Origin: Sipunculus nudus
Taxonomy: Eukaryota; Annelida; Sipuncula; Golfingiida; Sipunculidae
NCBI GenBank assembly: GCA_026874595.1
Contig: CM049319.1
Coordinates: forward strand, 3,502,601-3,566,600
Length of the DNA: 64,000 nt
Reading direction: 5' to 3'
Part shown: positions 15,994 through 49,601 of the stretch, one piece after another
How the letters are laid out: every line of letters begins with the position of its first letter
Position numbering within the stretch: the first letter of the stretch is position 1
The notes under the pieces: generated by a model
What the model was told of the DNA's origin: nothing
Database searches by the model: none
Seen by the model: the letters and a program-made list of their open reading frames with translations, nothing else
Position numbers and translations under genes: made by a program

Positions 15994-17087
15994 TAATCGG
16001 TTCAGACAGTAAAAAGAAATATGCAATTATCTGTGAAACTGTACTCTCTTAACCCAGCCCGTATGTCTTAGTAATTCTACCTTATGAAGTCTGCCTTTTT
16101 TATATTTTCCTATTATTAAGTTATGCTTTTCAAAATTTCATTTTAATGAATTATAATAATCAATAATTAAACCACAGTCCAAGACATCTACTTGCTGGCC
16201 CCCATGAATATTCCTGCGTATCATTTTAACTTCACCACAAGCAAGGACTTTCATTTTATAACAATTTTGGCGACTGCCGACATGCATACTGGTTTCACAA
16301 CCCCGCCAGGAAAATTACAGGCCTATATAATTTTTTATAAAAATTTTTAAAAAAGTAATTGAAAGCTAAAAATATAATTATATAGCGCTAACGTCACCTG
16401 GCATCAGTTGAAGAGATTATTTCTAAGAGAATCTCGCAAAATTGGCAAAGACCTGAAGAATTTTGGAGCATTTTAACGCCATATCGCCCATATTTTGCAA
16501 CGAACATCTCGTTAGAAAACACTCCGCTAATTCTCCCAACTCCCTGCCAGTTCACAGTGACAGGGGTTTAATTTGTCCTCCGTTCTCTCATCTACCTTGT
16601 CATACTCAGATACGGTGGTTATTTGGGAACACAGACACATTATATGAAGCGCGGAATGTTGTAAAAATTGGAAGAATAATTTTTGCCTATAACATAAAGA
16701 CATTCTGGGAAAAAATCATGAGTATGATGTAATCGATAGTTGCCTTTGGTAATGGAGCGCTTGAAAGTGGCAGCAAACCGACTGACTTTCGAAAAAATTT
16801 GATGATTGGCCCACCACTAGTTTTGGTCTATGTGCGCAATTCCCTATACATGTATAAATGGTCAAGTGATGATGCATTTAAAAGTGGGGCTCAAGCCCCC
16901 CCCCCCCCCAAAGATTCAAACAAACTGAGCATAATGAGTCTGCCATCAGAAGTTAAAAATAAAATTCAGAGACCCCTCTACTGAGCGTACTGTGCTGGTC
17001 ATTTTGTCATTCGAAATTGGAGATAAAATAACTTGGCTGGTTTTGATATCTGTTTAAAGTATGTCTCTACAGCGGAAGCTTTTGCTT

Positions 17088-17235
17088 AAAGACCACCTGT
17101 CTAATAAGACCACCTGTCTTTCAAGACCACCTGTCTAATAAGATCACCTGTCTATTAAGACCACCTGTCTAATAAGACCACCTGTCTATGTAGACCACCT
17201 GTCTAATAAGATCACCTGTCTAATAAGATCACCCT
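17088..17235. repeat. 17-bp minisatellite (AGACCACCTGTCTAATA)
   Basis: About nine tandem units of AGACCACCTGTCTAATA with minor changes (AGATCACC, CTATTAAG, CTTTCAAG). The same motif reappears singly at about 17,287 and 17,309, then inverted as 'GGTGGTCTTATAACACAGG' at about 17,327. The whole to about 17,360 looks like one small element ending in 'tttcactgta'. Confidence 0.85.
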
Positions 17236-17359
17236 TGCCTGAAATGGACACATTCACATTAGTTATCAGAAAATCTGATATATCCATAAGACCACCTCTG
17301 AATTAGACCACTTTTGGTCAGTCTCAAAGGTGGTCTTATAACACAGGTTTCACTGTATA

Positions 17360-24070: not shown

Positions 24071-24522
24071 GGCCTACTAAAAAAACTTCTGTTGTTTCTT
24101 TTACCTATTTAATTGATCAGTTTTTATCTATTTTTATTAGCCTTTTTATATTCATCTAATGCAAAACATTTAAACAATTTTTCACCAAATCCCCTGCAAT
24201 CAGCAGGATACTGAACAGAAGGATCATAATCAGAAGTAATATGTAAGCAAGAGAGACAGACTGACAACAAAACTGATTACACAGCGACAGTCTGATCTGG
24301 GCTACCAGACAGATCAGAACAAGGGACCCATGGGTCACGGCGCTCAGCTGATCATGATTGGACTATAAATGTTCCTCCACTGTGATACTATATTGAGTCG
24401 AGAAAGCTTATGAATATCATGGACATGTTGGGCTATAATAAAGGAATGTAATGTAATATGTGAGTTAATGATAAATGAAATTACCTGACTGATGGATTAA
24501 CAGAGTAAAATATAGTGGTTTA

Positions 24523-26421
24523 TTATGCCCCCGCAACAAAGTGGCCGGGGCATATAGTTTTACCCATGTCCGTCATTCCGTCATTCCGTCATTCCAAAAT
24601 GAAACAGTTGTACGGACTTTTTTCGCAATGCCTGCAGATATTAGCCTGATTTTTGGTGTGTGGGCAGATATAGACCAGTTACAGATCGAGTTCGCGTTTC
24701 GTCCCGGTTGCCCTACTTTTGACCGTTTTACGGCTCCTAAACTTAGAAAATTTCATGAAAAATAGAAATATTCATGACAGATACACATGTACGGACTTTT
24801 TTTCGCAATGCCTGCAGATATTGGCAGGATTTTTGGTGTGTGAGCAGATATAGACCAGTTACAGATCGAGTTCGCGTTTCCTCCTGGTTGACCTACTTTT
24901 GACCGTTTTACGGCTCCTAAACTTAGAAAATTTCATGAAAAATAGAAATATTCATGACAGATACACATGTACGGACTTTTTTTCGCAATGCCTGCAGATA
25001 TTGGCCTGATTTTTGGTGTGTGAGCAGATATAGACCAGTTACAGATCGAGTTCGTGTTTCGTCCTGGTTGACCTACTTTTGACCATTTTACGGCTCCTAA
25101 ACTTAGAAAATTTCATGAAAAATAGAAATATTCATGACAGATACACATGTACGGACTTTTTTTCGCAATGCCTGCAGATATTGGCCTGATTTATGGTGTG
25201 TGAGCAGATATAGACCAGTTACAGATCGAGTTCGCATTTCGTCCTGCTTGACCTACTTTTGACGGTTTTACGGCTCCTGAACATAGAAAATTTCATGAAA
25301 AATATGAAATTTCATGACAAATACACATGTACGTTTTTTTTTCTCAGTGCCTGCAGATATTGGCCTGATTTTTGGTGTTGACAGATATAGACCAGTTACA
25401 GATCGAGTTCGCGTTTCGTCCTGGTTGACCTACTTTTGACCGTTTTACGGCTCCTAAACTTAGAAATTTTCATGAAAAATAGAAATATTCATGACAGATA
25501 CACATGTACGGACTTTTTTTCGCAATGCCTGCAGATATTGGCCTAATTTTTGGTGTGTGGGCAGATATAGACCAGTTACAGATCGAGTTTGCGTTTCATC
25601 CCGGTTGACTTACTTTTGACCGTTTTACGGCTCCTGAACATAGAAAATTTCATGAAAAATATGAAATTTCATGACAAATACACATGTACAGACGTTTTTT
25701 CGCAATGCCTGCAGATATTGGCCTGAATTTTGGTGTGTCGGCAGATATTGACCAGATACAGGTGGAGTTCACGTTTTGTCCCAGTTGACCTATTTTTGAC
25801 CGTTTGACGGTGCTCTAACATAGAAAATTTCATAAAAAAGGTGCACATGTATGGACTTTTTTTCGCAGTGCCTGCAGATATGGGCCTGATTTTTGGTGTG
25901 TACGCAGATAATGACCAGTTACAGATCGAGTTCTTGTTTTGTCTCAGTTGACCTACTTTTGACCATTTGACTGCTCCTGAACATAGAAAGTTTCATGAAA
26001 AATATAAATTTTCATAACAAATGCATATGTACTGACTTTTTTTCCTCAATGCCTGCAGATACCACCCTGATTTTTTTTTGTGTGGGCAGATAATGACAGT
26101 TACAGATCGAGTTTGCGTTTCATCCTGGTTGACCTACTTTTGATTGTTTTACAGATCCTAAACATAGAAAATTTCATGAAAGACAGAAATTTTTATGGAA
26201 AATGCACATGTATGGACTTTTTTTCACAATGCCTGCATATACTGGCATGATTTTTGGTGTGTTGCTTGATAATGACCCGTTACAAATCGAGTTTGCATTT
26301 TGCCCTTGTTGACCTACTTTTGACCATACGACACCTCCTGAACCTAAAAAATTTTCAAAATTTTACAAGTGTTTCTAATTTGCCCAAGGCGGGGGCATTT
26401 GTGTCGTTCCGACACATCTAG
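24523..26421 (+). mobile_element. Helitron-like non-autonomous element with 180-bp tandem core
   Basis: The left end is TTATGCCCCCGC (from 24,523) and the right end contains GCGGGGGCAT (26,389-26,398), giving a 10-bp inverted repeat. The 3' end has a 6-bp stem GTGTCG/CGACAC (26,401-26,406 and 26,410-26,415) with a 3-nt loop, then AT and CTAG (26,418-26,421). This matches the hairpin-plus-CTRR 3' end of Helitrons. It carries no Rep/helicase frame, so it must be mobilised in trans. It lies inside copy B, whose uninterrupted counterpart is at about 303-330. Confidence 0.8.
24611..26380 (+). repeat. ~10 x 180-bp tandem array inside the Helitron-like element
   Basis: Units start at the TACGGAC box at about 24,611, 24,790, 24,970, 25,150, 25,330, 25,507, 25,687, 25,850, 26,030 and 26,211. 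Spacing is 179-181 bp, with 177 and 163 as exceptions. Shared landmarks are GCAATGCCTGCAGATA, CAGTTACAGATCGAGTT and GACCTACTTTTGACC. Units 2-4 are almost identical, whereas the last four are clearly diverged. No coding frame spans the units. Confidence 0.9.
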
Positions 26422-26727
26422 TTTATTTAGGAGGGGTTGAAAATTGTGATATATTTGAGCAAATATGAATGCAATGACAGCAGTAATAAGCAGTAGTAGA
26501 ATGATGATAAGGCTATTTGTTGAAGGATCTAAAGTGTATGGTAGTCTGCAAGCTTTCAATTTGACAGATATGATGTTATGATTAACTATGCTGATGAAGT
26601 GATTTACGAATTTGTGACTGTATGACACAATATCTCTTTAGTCTTGACAAGGTACATTATTGTGATGCCCACTATGTCTACATATTACACAATATTGACA
26701 TAATTTCTGGCATGTACATAGGTACCT

Positions 26728-43760: not shown

Positions 43761-43929
43761 AGCAGAATACCGGGGCATTTCAGCACATGGTGGCACTCAA
43801 ACTTGATTTTAAAACGATCGTCACCCATTGTGTGACCCTTTACGATGTCAGCTTTTTATTCATTTTACGTTTTTAACAAATAATCGTTGGTAAATAATGC
43901 CGCAAATGGGTTTAAAGCAGGTATTAATT

Positions 43930-44157
43930 CAAAAATTAAACGAAACTTACCAAGTTGAAGTTTGATTGGAATTCTGTCGATCCTTGAGTCTGCAGAGATC
44001 ACGTGAGATTGCAAGTCCGGAGCTCCCATGAGGCAAGTTTCAGAGGACTACACATGATCGGGCTGGGTGTAACAGGGTGGGCACGTGATCTCTGCAGACT
44101 CAAGGATCGACAGAATTCCAATCAAACTTCAACTTGGTAAGTTTCGTTTAATTTTTG
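43930..44157. repeat. Perfect 76-bp inverted repeat with 76-bp spacer, abutting the DIRS end
   Basis: Arms 43,930-44,005 and 44,082-44,157 are exact inverse copies; the spacer is 44,006-44,081. Each arm contains ATTCTGTC...GAGATCACGTG, a variant of the DIRS terminal repeat. The first arm continues into the spacer (to about 44,034) with sequence matching the inner 5' end of the DIRS element (about 48,615-48,646 inverted). The right arm stops one base before the DIRS terminal repeat. Confidence 0.85.
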
Positions 44158-44158
44158 G

Positions 44159-44198
44159 ATTCTGTCTCACCTCTCGTCTTACGAGATCACGTGAGATT
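44159..44198. repeat. DIRS left inverted terminal repeat (40 bp)
   Basis: Exact inverse of 48,647-48,686. It contains an internal GAGATCACGTGAGATT stretch. Confidence 0.9.
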
Positions 44199-44221
44199 TT
44201 TAGAGTTCATGTGTCGTCAGA

Positions 44222-45328
44222 CTATTGTGAGGCTTGTGTTAAGTTCTGAGTACCAATAACCGGTTTATTGTAATATTTAGTGAAGGTGGACTCTGCTGTC
44301 CAGCCTGCTGTTTTCAATATAGTGTCAATAGGGAGATTACCTCGTACTGCGGCAGATGTTGCTGCAGCTCTGGTGTTATGCGTTGTAAAGATTGACATAT
44401 CAATTCCTGCCTCTTTCAGTGTTGATTTAAGCCACCTGGATTTTGTGTCCCTAGATACCACTCTGTGTGGCTTTTGCAGGGTTAGGAAGAGCCTATTTTC
44501 ATCTTGTCTGTAACTACTTGTTCTTTTTATGTACTCTGATAACACAGTAACCACACATAAACGGCGATCTGGAACATATGCTTTCAAAGTTATTTCCTGT
44601 TGGTGCCTATTTGGAGCTGATTATTTAACTAGATCACCTACTCTGAGTTTAATCTTTGAAGTGGTCAATGTAATATTGTCTACACGTAATAAATGCAGAA
44701 ACTGTCCTCTTTGCCCTGTAAGCAGGGCTAGGAGTGTTAGCAGTTTATAGGATAAGAATATTGTTGACAAGTCTCTTACTGGTGAGAGTGTTCTTAAATA
44801 TTGTAACACTGTGTCTGTGTCCCATGTTACACAAGTTTTAGGGATGGCCGGCCAAATATTAAATACCCCTTTTAAAAACCTGGTGACAAGCGGATGACTA
44901 CCAAAAGTGCAACCTTCAAATGGCTTGATGATTGTAGACAAAGCTGATCTGACTGTGTTTATTGCACTGTAACTGAGTCCTGATTTTACTAGTGTGCTCA
45001 TAAACTCTAAAGCTTGTCCCAGAGATTGTGAAAAGGGATCCACTGACCTTTCACTACAGTACCTATTCCATTGGGAGAGGTAAGTTTGGTACTGTTTTTG
45101 TGTATTTTTCCTCCATGAACAGAGGATAACGGTTGCTGCTGCTGAAGGAATTTCTTGTTTTCTGAGGGCTTGCCTGACAAGAGGCAAGCCAGCAGAGTCA
45201 TTTTCGTGAGTCTGTGAGTTTCCTGTGGTTTCTGTGGTAGTTGTAACGTTGTTTGGCTGTGCGGTAGTATGCGGGGGTGATCTGTCAGTAGCTGCATTGC
45301 TTTCGGGAACCACGGTTGTGTTGTCCAA
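44222..45328 (-). pseudogene. DIRS tyrosine recombinase, one in-frame stop
   Basis: One reading frame runs through the span and is broken only by a TAA at 44,623-44,621. Before the stop are the core-binding-like helical domain (WRKNTQKQYQTYLSQW region) and the first catalytic arginine in TGQRGQ. After it come the HNTR box (H-x-x-R) and the terminal tyrosine in FTKYY. All four R-H-R-Y catalytic positions are thus present, but on opposite sides of the stop. The open frame begins at a TTG, with no ATG near its start, so the true initiation, possibly via the overlapping RT frame, is unknown. The enzyme would integrate the circular cDNA; this copy needs readthrough or help from another copy. Confidence 0.85.
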
Positions 45329-46965
45329 AATGGTAAAATTACAATTCCTGTTGCCTGTTCTAGTATTATTTTCTTGATTACTTGTGCAAGGATGCTGAAA
45401 GGAGGAAAAGCATAAAAGTAATATATAGACCAGTCTATGGAAAAAGCATCTACAGCGAGAGCATGTGGATCAGGTTTCCAGGCAACATAAGGTGTTACCT
45501 GATTGTTCAGCCTGGATGCAAAGAGGTCTATTTCAATAGTACCCCACAGGCTTGTCAACTGTTTAAACAGTTTAGGATTTAGCTGCCATTCTGCATCATG
45601 ATTTACCTCGCTTGATAATTTATCCGCCTCTACATTCTCCCTTCCAGGTAGATGTGCTGCCGACAGCCAAATGTTTCTCTCAACGCACCAGTCCCAAATT
45701 TTCCTAGCAAGAGCATACAGTTGAGGTTTTGTACCTCCTTGCTTGTTTATATAGGTTACAGCGGTGACATTGTCCATAAGTAGCCTGATATGTGTGTTGC
45801 TAAGACTATTGCAGAGAGATTGTAATGCTAAGAAAGCTGCCAGCAATTCTAAATAGTTAATGTGATGTTTAGATTCACAACTATTCCAATTGCCACCTGT
45901 TTTTTGATTTTCTAGCACTCCTCCCCATCCTGTGCCACTAGCATCTGTTGACAATGTGATGTCCGGCTTTCCCCTTCTCATGGGTTTTTCTACAGAATGT
46001 GCATTTCTAATCCACCATTTCAAGTCAGTAACTGCTTTATTAGAGAGCACCATTTTATGTTCATAGTCACCCTTACTCATTCTAACTGCCTCAGATTTAT
46101 CTAGCTCAATGCATTTTGTCCTAAGCGGTCCCAGCGAGACTCCTGGACAGCTTGATACGAGTATACCTAATACCTCTGCTACCTGCCTGATAGTTGGACG
46201 GGGATATGCATTAAGCCTCTTGCAACACGATACTATGTTGTCTGCCTTCTCTTGTGTTAATGATACAGTCATTGTTTTTGAATTTAGAATGAATCCTAAG
46301 AATTTTATCTCTTGAGAAGGAGTTAGGACTGATTTCTCATTGTGGACTAAAAACCCCAATCTAGTAAACAGTGAAACTGTATCTGTTACATTTTTTGCAC
46401 ACTCTTCAAAATCATCACCAATCAAAAGGGAGTCATCAATATAAGCTACATTTACATGCCCCTGTTGTCTTAGTGAGGAATAAACTGGTTTAAGCAGTTT
46501 AGTGAACAAGCGAGGAGCAGGCGACAGTCCGTTAGGCATGCAGGTAAATTTGAAAAACTTTCCCTTCCATGCAAAGCAGAGATATTTCTGAAAATCCCTG
46601 TGCACAGGCACCTTGTAGTAGGCGTCCTTTAAGTCCACTGATGCTAAATAACAGCCTGGTGTGATTAAGTTGATTGCATGATCCAGTGACTCCATTTTAA
46701 AGTGGTGGTATTCTATATACTCATTTAGGGCCTTCAAGTTCAGTATTACACGGTATTTCCCATTCTTTTTTGCTCTGAGAAATATGTTTGAAAAAACACT
46801 GCCCGGCTCAAAGCTTGTTCGCTCAATAACCTGTTTGTTCAATAAGTTCTCAATTTCTATTTGAATAATTTTCTCCTCTGCCGTGTTTAGTTTTAAAGGT
46901 TTTGGAATGAAGTTCCTTACAGGGGGATAATTTGAGGTAAAGTTTAGTTTAACACCCATTACCAT
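45007..46965 (-). CDS. DIRS reverse transcriptase-RNase H polyprotein
   Basis: Uninterrupted frame of about 652 residues from the first ATG (46,965); the open frame extends slightly upstream. The RT palm has SVDLKDAYYKVPV (~109-121) and the catalytic YIDD (~175-178). RNase H follows with the acidic residues of LSTDASG (~D341), YLELLAAF (~E373), LLMDNVTAV (~D398) and LPGRENVEAD (~D448). Then comes an IDLFASRLNNQ block and a C-terminal region typical of animal DIRS elements. All RT and RNase H catalytic positions look intact. The 3' end overlaps the recombinase frame by about 320 nt. Confidence 0.92.
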   Translation of the reverse strand: MVMGVKLNFTSNYPPVRNFIPKPLKLNTAEEKIIQIEIENLLNKQVIERTSFEPGSVFSNIFLRAKKNGKYRVILNLKALNEYIEYHHFKMESLDHAINLITPGCYLASVDLKDAYYKVPVHRDFQKYLCFAWKGKFFKFTCMPNGLSPAPRLFTKLLKPVYSSLRQQGHVNVAYIDDSLLIGDDFEECAKNVTDTVSLFTRLGFLVHNEKSVLTPSQEIKFLGFILNSKTMTVSLTQEKADNIVSCCKRLNAYPRPTIRQVAEVLGILVSSCPGVSLGPLRTKCIELDKSEAVRMSKGDYEHKMVLSNKAVTDLKWWIRNAHSVEKPMRRGKPDITLSTDASGTGWGGVLENQKTGGNWNSCESKHHINYLELLAAFLALQSLCNSLSNTHIRLLMDNVTAVTYINKQGGTKPQLYALARKIWDWCVERNIWLSAAHLPGRENVEADKLSSEVNHDAEWQLNPKLFKQLTSLWGTIEIDLFASRLNNQVTPYVAWKPDPHALAVDAFSIDWSIYYFYAFPPFSILAQVIKKIILEQATGIVILPFWTTQPWFPKAMQLLTDHPRILPHSQTTLQLPQKPQETHRLTKMTLLACLLSGKPSENKKFLQQQQPLSSVHGGKIHKNSTKLTSPNGIGTVVKGQWIPFHNLWDKL

Positions 46966-47250
46966 GTCCAAAATAAAATCATCTTCTGTTATTGTTTTAC
47001 TCTTGATAATGTGATTTTATTTTTCCACCTACTGCCTCACATGGTTTACCACGCATTGATCTATCACTAGACATATGTAATGAATTGTCACTTGCCTGGG
47101 CTATACTTGGTGATGTTCCTTCCGTTTTGTTTATCTCCAGCGCGGCCTTGTTTTGTGTTGTTTGTGCCTCTTTTGCCTGTATGACTGTCCTTTCATCCCT
47201 AAAAAAGGCTTTGTTACTGGTGCTTTGCCCTTTGTGCTTGTGTGTGTTTG
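46966..47250 (-). other. DIRS spacer between gag-like and RT frames
   Basis: No open frame joins the two genes, and stops are present in the RT frame upstream of its ATG. The RT may be translated by reinitiation or from a spliced mRNA; nothing visible decides. Confidence 0.4.
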
Positions 47251-48252
47251 CTACTTGTAGTGACTGTTGTTACTCCTGTAGTTTCCTTGGTGTACTAGAC
47301 GCTGAGACAGGGCATTTGAATCCTGGATTCTTTGCATAGATTGCTGCAGATTATCACCAAACAACAAGTCTGTTACTGGCACATCTGCTTTACAGAGTTC
47401 TTTGAATTGGCCCTGCAGGTCCCCCTTTAACAGCTCCCTCCTGCGCAAATTAAGTTCATGATTGGCATGGCTGATGATAGCAGTACCATCCATCAGTTGT
47501 CTTATCATGCCGTCCAGATTAACATCATTAATGGACTTCGTGCCCATTTTTAGCTGCAACAGCGTATCACCTACTTGGATAGATGGGGTAACCCCTTTCA
47601 AGATGGCTGCTTGGACCCGCTGAAGTCTATTGTCTCTTAGCTTTGTATCCTGCCTAAGCTTACTCCAGACTTCTTTGTTAACTCTTGTGCCCTTGAGTTT
47701 TGTCAGATTTGCAGGGGTCAGTACAGAGTCTATCTTCTCCTTTACAGTATCACTAGGATTACTTGTAATGATTTTGTCCACTAACTCTGCGAGTTTAGGG
47801 TTAATTTCAGGGCCAAGATCTTCTCGCTTTTCAAATGACAAAGCTATCTGATCTAAAAATTCAGACTCACCATTGCTGTTAGCTTGAGAAGCAGGTACAG
47901 AGTCCAAGAGCTGGTTAAGTTCAGTGTCTTGATCGTAAGCCTCTGTGTCCTCCTCATCACTGTCAACATGAGGAGTGTTCCCGGTGAGCGCATGGCCGCC
48001 ATCTTGACTTGGAGTGGCACTGGCTCCACTGGTCCCCGGGGTTTGGTCTGAACTGTTGTATCCCTGGTTTTGCTTAAGTTGTCTAATTTCCTGTTGCATG
48101 CCTTGTATAGTGTTGGCTAATGCGGCGTGATTTGCCTCAGAGCTTTCCTTAAAGTCTCTGAAAGCGGCCAGCAGGGCGAGCATCTGGGAATCCCCCTTCT
48201 CAGGGCTAGCATCTCGGCAACTTGACTCCAGCTCACTGGGTCTGTCTGCCAT
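47251..48252 (-). CDS. DIRS gag-like protein (333 aa)
   Basis: Intact frame from an ATG at 48,252. It begins with an acidic/polar N-terminus, then a likely coiled coil around residues 38-62, a Ser/Gly/Asp-rich linker, and a more structured C-terminal half rich in Lys/Leu/Asp. No zinc knuckle (CCHC) is seen, as is usual for DIRS gag. Assignment rests on position, first frame of the element on the same strand, rather than on sequence similarity I can verify. It would package the element RNA. Confidence 0.7.
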   Translation of the reverse strand: MADRPSELESSCRDASPEKGDSQMLALLAAFRDFKESSEANHAALANTIQGMQQEIRQLKQNQGYNSSDQTPGTSGASATPSQDGGHALTGNTPHVDSDEEDTEAYDQDTELNQLLDSVPASQANSNGESEFLDQIALSFEKREDLGPEINPKLAELVDKIITSNPSDTVKEKIDSVLTPANLTKLKGTRVNKEVWSKLRQDTKLRDNRLQRVQAAILKGVTPSIQVGDTLLQLKMGTKSINDVNLDGMIRQLMDGTAIISHANHELNLRRRELLKGDLQGQFKELCKADVPVTDLLFGDNLQQSMQRIQDSNALSQRLVHQGNYRSNNSHYK

Positions 48253-48646
48253 TGCTTCCTAGGGTCCCGATTCTTGGATTTTCCTTAACTTAGGCTGAAC
48301 ATGGCTGCTCCTAGAGCTAGCTGAAGGCCGCTTGTCCTTGTTATCCATCCTTCAATGTTTGTTTACAAACAGTTCTTTTCGGTCCCACAAGCGCGTGAGC
48401 GTGGAATCAGTAGTCCGTTCACAACTAACAGCTAAACTAAACTCTGAACGTCTAAATAACCTAAAACAACTATGGAACTAATGAAAAACTGATTCTACAA
48501 TACAGCCACGATCAGTAGAGCAAGAGTACACTTCTGTACGGTCGAAACCTCAGCCAGAATATGATATTAAATGACCCGCTAGTAACTTACCTTACAAGCC
48601 TCACGGGAACCGGAAGTGCATTGCCTCATGGGAGCTCTGGACTTGC
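48253..48646 (-). other. DIRS 5' leader
   Basis: Untranslated leader between the 5' terminal repeat and the gag-like ATG. A consensus-like splice donor (AAGGTAAGTTAC, minus strand, about 48,595-48,584) lies 60 nt inside the terminal repeat, suggesting spliced element transcripts. Inference only. Confidence 0.35.
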
Positions 48647-48686
48647 AATCTCACGTGATCTCGTAAGACGAGAGGTGAGACAGAAT
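48647..48686. repeat. DIRS right inverted terminal repeat (40 bp)
   Basis: Exact inverse of 44,159-44,198. On the minus strand this is the 5' end of the element. Confidence 0.9.
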
Positions 48687-49601
48687 TTCAGTTTTGCTTG
48701 ACCATGCCCAACGAAGTGGGCCCCTGTGTGTTACAGCAGGGGTGTTATAAACGTATTATTTGGTGTTAATTACCAAGATTTTTATAACACGAGAGATAAT
48801 CAGCAATATTTAATTAACAAATAAAACATAATCATAAATAATACATTTACACAAGGCTCCCATGCATGGGAGACTGCTGCTAATGGCGGCCTTGGAAAGT
48901 CGCTATATTACCGCCCACTCAACGGCCAAAAAACGATGTCTGCCAGGAAGATATATATGAAACCCTTCTAATATAAACCGCACAGTGCTTTCAGGAAAAC
49001 AACATGATTTCAAGATTTTGAATTTCTTGATTAAACCGCGGTTTTAAGTGGAGATTTTACGGTACAGTTTGATTGTGTTCGTCACGTGCGGACCTGAATA
49101 TCTCACACTGTTTTGCTGAGCTTGAGAAACATTTTTTAAACTGGCCTGCTCTGAAAAGCAATGGTCTTAAAAACGGCAGACATGCCAAGTCTCATACACT
49201 GGGTGTGAGACTCATGCATTTACCCTCGTCTCACACTGTCATGCCAAGGGACATAAATCTCACTCATTCTGTTACATGGCCCGTTCATCCCAAGCTTTCA
49301 AGTTAAAACTTAACGTCTTAAGCCTCGTGTCCACTTGTACTGATGCGGTGTGTGTGCAGATCTATACATATGCAGATATTTTGTGGGTTTGTGTCCATTT
49401 GATACATTTGTCAGTGCATTTTTAGGTCCTCCACCTCTAAAAAATGGTACATTTCCGCATGCGTTTCTGTACCTGCGGCTATGTGGTCCGGTTGGCAAAA
49501 AAACGTAAAAAAAAATTCTGGGAAAGACCATTATAATTCTCCTTATGTCACTGGGAAAGACCTTAGTTCAGAGAGGCGGTGATGTGTGGGAAAAATAAGG
49601 G

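Follow-up and report, generated by a model that had tools for sequence, protein, structure and literature searches.

Introduction

The window analyzed here, a stretch of 64,000 nucleotides from Sipunculus nudus (contig CM049319.1), contains a foldback of two inverted arms lying next to a 40-nt repeat that had been taken for the end of a DIRS1-like retrotransposon. This raises the question whether the foldback is a structure of independent origin that came to lie beside the element, or a part of the element itself. Our analysis favors the latter: the foldback is almost certainly the 3′ terminal apparatus of the DIRS1-like retrotransposon, in which an internal complementary region (ICR) lies beside the true right terminus. 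What was found is ordinary DIRS1-like architecture; the misreading arose from treating the ICR as the element's end.

Results

The foldback is exact, as initially described: positions 43930-44005 and 44082-44157 are perfect reverse complements of 76 nt each, around a spacer (44006-44081) that is also 76 nt long. Lengthened to 80 nt (43926-44005 and 44082-44161), the arms pair at 79 of 80 positions, the lone mismatch being T at 43929 against G at 44158. When the window was scanned for inverted 20-mers less than 600 bp apart, this foldback was the only long-armed pair; the remaining five rows were near-coincident self-palindromes of 20-21 nt. Chance pairing can be dismissed, because at least 65 scored matches to the 80-nt arm occur across the 1.43 Gb of the genome, mainly as inverted pairs. 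The starts of the paired arms lie ~150-200 nt apart (1.7 kb in one pair); since the spacing differs in other pairs, the 76-76-76 equality looks like a coincidence of the subfamily of the window copy. The 40-nt repeat at 44159-44198 recurs exactly, in inverted orientation, at 48647-48686, and the inner 5′ end of the element (48621-48690) is 84% identical over 70 nt to arm and spacer sequence at 43967-44036, in agreement with the first description of arm and spacer as continuing with inner 5′ DIRS sequence.

The trinucleotide ATT is present at both ends of the segment 43926-48686. The flanks of this segment were joined with one ATT between them and compared with the genome; among 1265 candidates, all 40 scored matches spanned the junction, and the best seven empty-site loci were 97-99% identical over 222-223 of 223 nt, with unchanged length. 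The host sequence around the element (43816-43925 and 48687-48796) is a very common repeat, with 1265 candidates for the joined flanks. For a second copy (L007), the joined flanks gave 39 spanning matches among the matches listed, at 81-87%, and for a third (L012) one match of 98% over query positions 43-223 and another of 91% over positions 1-223 with small indels; for L016 the joined flanks found only remote relatives, the best at about 75%. The empty sites contain neither the foldback nor the DIRS sequence; the two therefore arrived together, and the element extends from 43926 to 48686 (Table 1). These limits and the empty site are direct observations, and they revise the initial annotation. 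Its interval of 43930-44198 enclosed a real foldback and omitted the terminal bases 43926-43929, which are part of the element; its DIRS end at 44159, with the foldback abutting, was placed 233 bp short of the boundary, and the foldback lies inside the element.

The empty site carries one ATT, in keeping with integration at a 3-bp match without target site duplication. Among 24 copies, ATT was read at 19 of the 5′ ends, the other five differing, and the preceding host base was A in 16, G in 5, T in 2 and C in 1. A 4-bp AATT junction was considered, as AATT stands at both ends of the window copy, and was rejected because the preceding base varies; the shared core is therefore ATT, often with an A before it.

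Table 1. Predicted features of the DIRS1-like element in the window.
Feature	Position	Strand	Remarks
Whole DIRS1-like element, 4761 bp	43926-48686	minus	Flanks joined over a single ATT align across the junction at other loci
Right extension (rE), 45 nt, extreme 3′ end	43926-43970	minus	Complements right ICR; absent from left end
GGTAAGT within rE	43945-43951	minus	
Right ITR, 66 nt	43971-44036	minus	56/66 to left ITR
Spacer between arms, 76 nt	44006-44081	minus	Overlaps inner right ITR
Right ICR, 80 nt	44082-44161	minus	Complementary to right terminus at 79/80
Left ICR, 40 nt	44159-44198	minus	Exact complement of left terminus; the "DIRS terminal repeat" of the initial annotation
Tyrosine recombinase (YR) frame, 3′ end of coding region	44222-45328	minus	Phage_integrase, 1.2e-8
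pol ORF: RT, RNase H, probable Dam-type methyltransferase	45007-46971	minus	Pfam
ORF in gag position, 333 aa	47251-48252	minus	By placement alone
Left ITR, 66 nt, 5′ end	48621-48686	minus	

The two inverted terminal repeats (ITRs) are alike at only 15 of their outer 24 positions, against 41 of the inner 42. When the two element ends are joined over ATT to give the circle junction, the reverse complement of that sequence agrees with the stretch 44082-44198 at 116 of 117 positions. The left and right parts of this stretch overlap on the 3-bp circular junction (44159-44161), and each half fits its own end although the ITRs diverge over the outer 24 nt. On the basis of these alignments, 44159-44198 and 44082-44161 are together assigned as the ICR of a DIRS1-like retrotransposon, and the outer arm (43926-44005) as its true right terminus, consisting of right ITR and rE. 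The earlier proposal that the foldback consists of DIRS terminal sequence and is linked to the circle junction is borne out by the near-complete match.

In the coding region of the window copy, the YR frame is broken by one in-frame stop (44621-44623); its start codon is a mechanical choice, and its SAM-like domain scores 7.5e-4, under the Pfam cut-off. The pol ORF matches RVT_1 at 2.8e-21 and RT_RNaseH at 2.2e-5 (25.0 bits, against a cut-off of 24.8). The probable methyltransferase that follows RNase H corresponds to a Dam match of 2e-4, with 21.5 bits under the cut-off of 28.1. No Pfam family was matched by the ORF in the gag position.

Across the genome, 38 3′ loci chosen by the arms or by the DIRS 3′ body were read, the window copy included. 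Both arms are intact in 28, and the ten loci without an intact second arm (L011, L014, L020, L042, L043, L056, L057, L058, L059, and L060; arm missing or truncated) were omitted from the arm statistics. All 28 two-arm loci have the same order of left ICR half, right ICR half, spacer, and right terminus, followed by copy-specific host sequence; L010 carries about 1.5 kb extra between its arms. Whether such foldbacks occur alone or beside DIRS elements, a question already raised by the initial annotation, could be answered for these loci: all 28 have DIRS coding sequence on their ICR side (the window copy, 24 of the 27 others in short flanks, and L051, L052, and L054 in the adjoining stretches L061-L063).

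This association bears on the possibility that a separate short foldback or MITE-like family inserts beside DIRS ends. Two coding-free short remnants could be cited for such a family, namely an isolated 69-nt terminus/ICR piece flanked by two similar host stretches (L014, 830-898), around which a search 3 kb to either side found no DIRS match, and a 91-bp remnant (L059, 428-518) that consists solely of 55 nt from the right and 35 nt from the left terminus, arranged as in an integrated element. Against this stand the invariable DIRS neighbor of the two-arm foldbacks, the empty site that lacks foldback and DIRS together, and the identity of the inner arm plus adjoining repeat with the complement of the DIRS circle junction, so that we regard a separate family as exceedingly improbable. 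A hairpin artefact of the assembly, to which near-perfect palindromes are prone, is just as improbable, as both arms are found at 27 further loci of the same assembly in different host flanks, joining the flanks restores a clean empty site, and published elements share the layout.

If the ICR reading is correct, ends and ICR should correspond within copies. Among the 28 two-arm copies, the mean fit of the right terminus to its own right ICR is 0.952, against 0.859 for the right ICRs of other copies; 20,000 permutations gave a mean of 0.862 and a highest value of 0.902. The left end, compared in 20 copies, fits its own left ICR at a mean of 0.947, those of other copies at 0.900, and the right ITR of the same copy at just 0.67-0.81. 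In 17 of the 28 copies the right ICR of another copy is closer than the copy's own, and the same holds for the left ICR in 11 of 20; the permutation signal is therefore largely one between subfamilies, and the 17 closer foreign right ICRs count against an event-by-event reading of the fit.

A comparison between families is a sharper test of the ICR reading than the fit within a family, and this genome offers a natural test of the ICR model in DIRS families whose two ends and ICR vary in concert. Eleven loci (L068-L078, with some close pairs, such as L068/L078 and L069/L075) were selected by the rE core. All eleven match DIRS proteins; ten contain RT pieces 38-50% identical to that of the window, and L076 matched the recombinase alone in the stretch examined. 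Arms of 75-86 nt with 96-100% identity are present in nine of the eleven, despite ITRs near-unrelated to those of the window, and the remaining two (L069 and L077) retain 38 and 30 nt of arm. In all eight core-chosen loci with examined 5′ ends the left end aligns with the left ICR, with internal differences in L077; seven of these ends start with ATT, and that of L068 with GTT.

A further 20 loci were hand-picked from 108 RT matches, mostly long ones that were not among the core matches listed; they include close pairs (L126/L133 and L128/L136), and the independent families are fewer than the loci. A two-arm foldback is found in 9 of the 12 loci with an RT 46-52% identical to that of the window. 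Among the eight with 30-37% identity, two from a distant lineage (L140 and L144, 32-33%) have foldbacks of 70 and 68 nt of unrelated sequence, L141 has a 40-nt inverted pair that is wider apart, and in five a comparable foldback was not seen in the stretch examined. Thus the anatomy, the match between each ICR half and the corresponding end, and the recurrence of this layout across families are all seen directly.

These lineages also bear on the suggestion that the foldback is a by-product left at a single insertion when the circle or its junction was replicated. Such an origin would account for a foldback that equals the circle-junction complement; however, the structure occurs at 28 two-arm loci and in other DIRS lineages with a different ITR sequence. 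As it recurs in this way, the foldback is an inherited part, and a by-product is very unlikely. Hence neither a by-product, a minimal derivative with two ITRs, a second family nor an assembly artefact, all raised at first, replaces the reading of an encoded ICR together with the element's own true right terminus.

The rE, which had served to select loci, was itself found to be conserved. With at most one mismatch allowed, its core (GGTAAGTNTCGTTTAATT) occurs at 304 genomic places, and the reversed control at 28. The first measure of conservation was made mostly on core-chosen loci and is biased; among seven family representatives, five of them core-chosen, the mean pairwise identity is 0.828 for the rE, 0.571 for the next 40 nt inward, and 0.503 for shuffled rE, while RT identity among 13 loci has a median of 44.6% (52 comparisons, some of them intra-family). 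The measure was repeated on the 20 RT-chosen loci. With at most three mismatches, the core is present in element sense in 10 of the 12 loci with an RT 46-52% identical to that of the window; of the other two, L127 has it on the opposite strand only, as in an ICR, and L134 on neither strand. None of the eight loci with 30-37% identity has the core in element sense, and one (L142) has a single opposite-strand match. The rE is conserved, then, in one DIRS clade of this genome. The core also occurs in viral and prokaryotic collections, in 9 and 30 stretches, respectively; none matches the DIRS proteins of the window, and these occurrences were taken as chance.

Two blocks within the rE stand out in the ten RT-chosen loci. 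The nine bases around GT read CAGGTAAGG in four loci, CAGGTAAGT in two, and CAGGCAAGT, AAGGTAGGT, GAGGTAAGT, and CAGGTAAGC in one each, whereas TTTAATT, nearer the junction, is identical in 10 of 10. We take the nine-base block to resemble the consensus 5′ splice site. It is conceivable, though we think it rather unlikely, that the rE contains a functional 5′ splice site (mostly MAG|GTRAGN), maintained by selection at the extreme 3′ tip of the elements throughout a DIRS clade. In addition to any part played by the rE in recombinase binding, this site would be used by transcripts that run across the circle or tandem junction or extend beyond the element. Such a site would, for example, allow the left ITR to be spliced out, or U1 binding to block early polyadenylation. 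If true, this would explain why the rE is ~83% alike among families with near-unrelated ITRs and RTs that are mostly ~45% identical. The TTTAATT block could equally be a recombinase-binding arm. We found no report of a splice signal in DIRS right extensions in the open-licence papers searched. A second GGTAAGT (AAGGTAAGT) is located at 48585-48591 on the minus strand, ~95 nt inward from the element's 5′ end; in eight other families, AGGTRAG is absent from the first 700 nt of the 5′ ends.

Discussion

Read in element sense, the window copy runs from the left ITR through gag/pol/YR, left ICR, right ICR, spacer, and right ITR to the rE. According to the published DIRS model (PMC5633606; PMC3266345), the ICR templates the ends, a circle is formed, and the YR exchanges a trinucleotide. 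In the window element, the ICR encodes the reverse complement of the two element ends joined over ATT; under the model, end sequence missing from the transcript would be restored on the ICR as template, and both ends would be brought together for circularization. The YR would then recombine the junction trinucleotide with the same three host bases, leaving no target site duplication. The anatomy of the window element fits each of these steps, although templating, circle formation, and recombination are themselves inferred from the published models. The integrated copy shows a foldback because the right ICR adjoins the right terminus that it complements.

The layout lITR-lICR-rICR-rITR-rE has been described by Piednoel et al. 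(2011; PMC3266345). In that paper, LgDIRS1 and LgDIRS3 from Lottia gigantea and AcaDIRS1 and AcaDIRS2 from Aplysia californica have this same order and, like the window element, ATT ends and an AAT circular junction. The sizes are also close: LgDIRS1 has ITRs of 66 nt (35+31), an ICR of 39-86, and a length of 4680 bp, compared to 66 nt, 40-80, and 4761 bp in the window, and the rE is 48-49 nt in the Lottia and Aplysia elements (48 in LgDIRS1) and 45 nt here; Table 3 of the same paper gives rE lengths of 46-50 nt for DIRS from molluscs, cnidarians, and crustaceans. In contrast, Mollusca DIRS are described there as lacking a long ORF overlap, whereas the mechanically delimited pol and YR ORFs of the window share 322 nt. 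The likeness to the mollusc elements is a lead rather than an identification.

Similarities extend to DIRS-1 of Dictyostelium discoideum, which is described (PMC5633606) as having inverted terminal repeats, an ICR complementary to both outer ends, and three ORFs with RT/RH/MT and YR; the window element shares the repeats, the ICR, RT/RH, and YR, and has a probable MT, the match to which is below the cut-off, and an ORF in the gag position. DIRS1-2 differs in its dimensions, with an ITR of 316 nt and an rE of 24 (PMC3266345, Table 3), against 66 and 45 in the window element. PAT and Ngaro (PMC4157794; PMC9210276) are likewise YR retrotransposons in which internal repeats pair with terminal ones; their repeats are split direct. 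The terminal repeats of the window element are inverted, and membership in PAT/Ngaro was rejected on this ground.

For annotation, the consequence is that limits drawn from the 40-nt inverted repeats would lose the true 3′ end of such elements and mislabel it as a separate foldback; at this locus, the element limits have been corrected.

Other repeats in the window comprise tandem arrays with units of about 180 bp (24478-26378) and 17 bp (17055-17258), and a 305-nt inverted pair (1-305 and 26422-26726) of 99% identity, about 26 kb apart.
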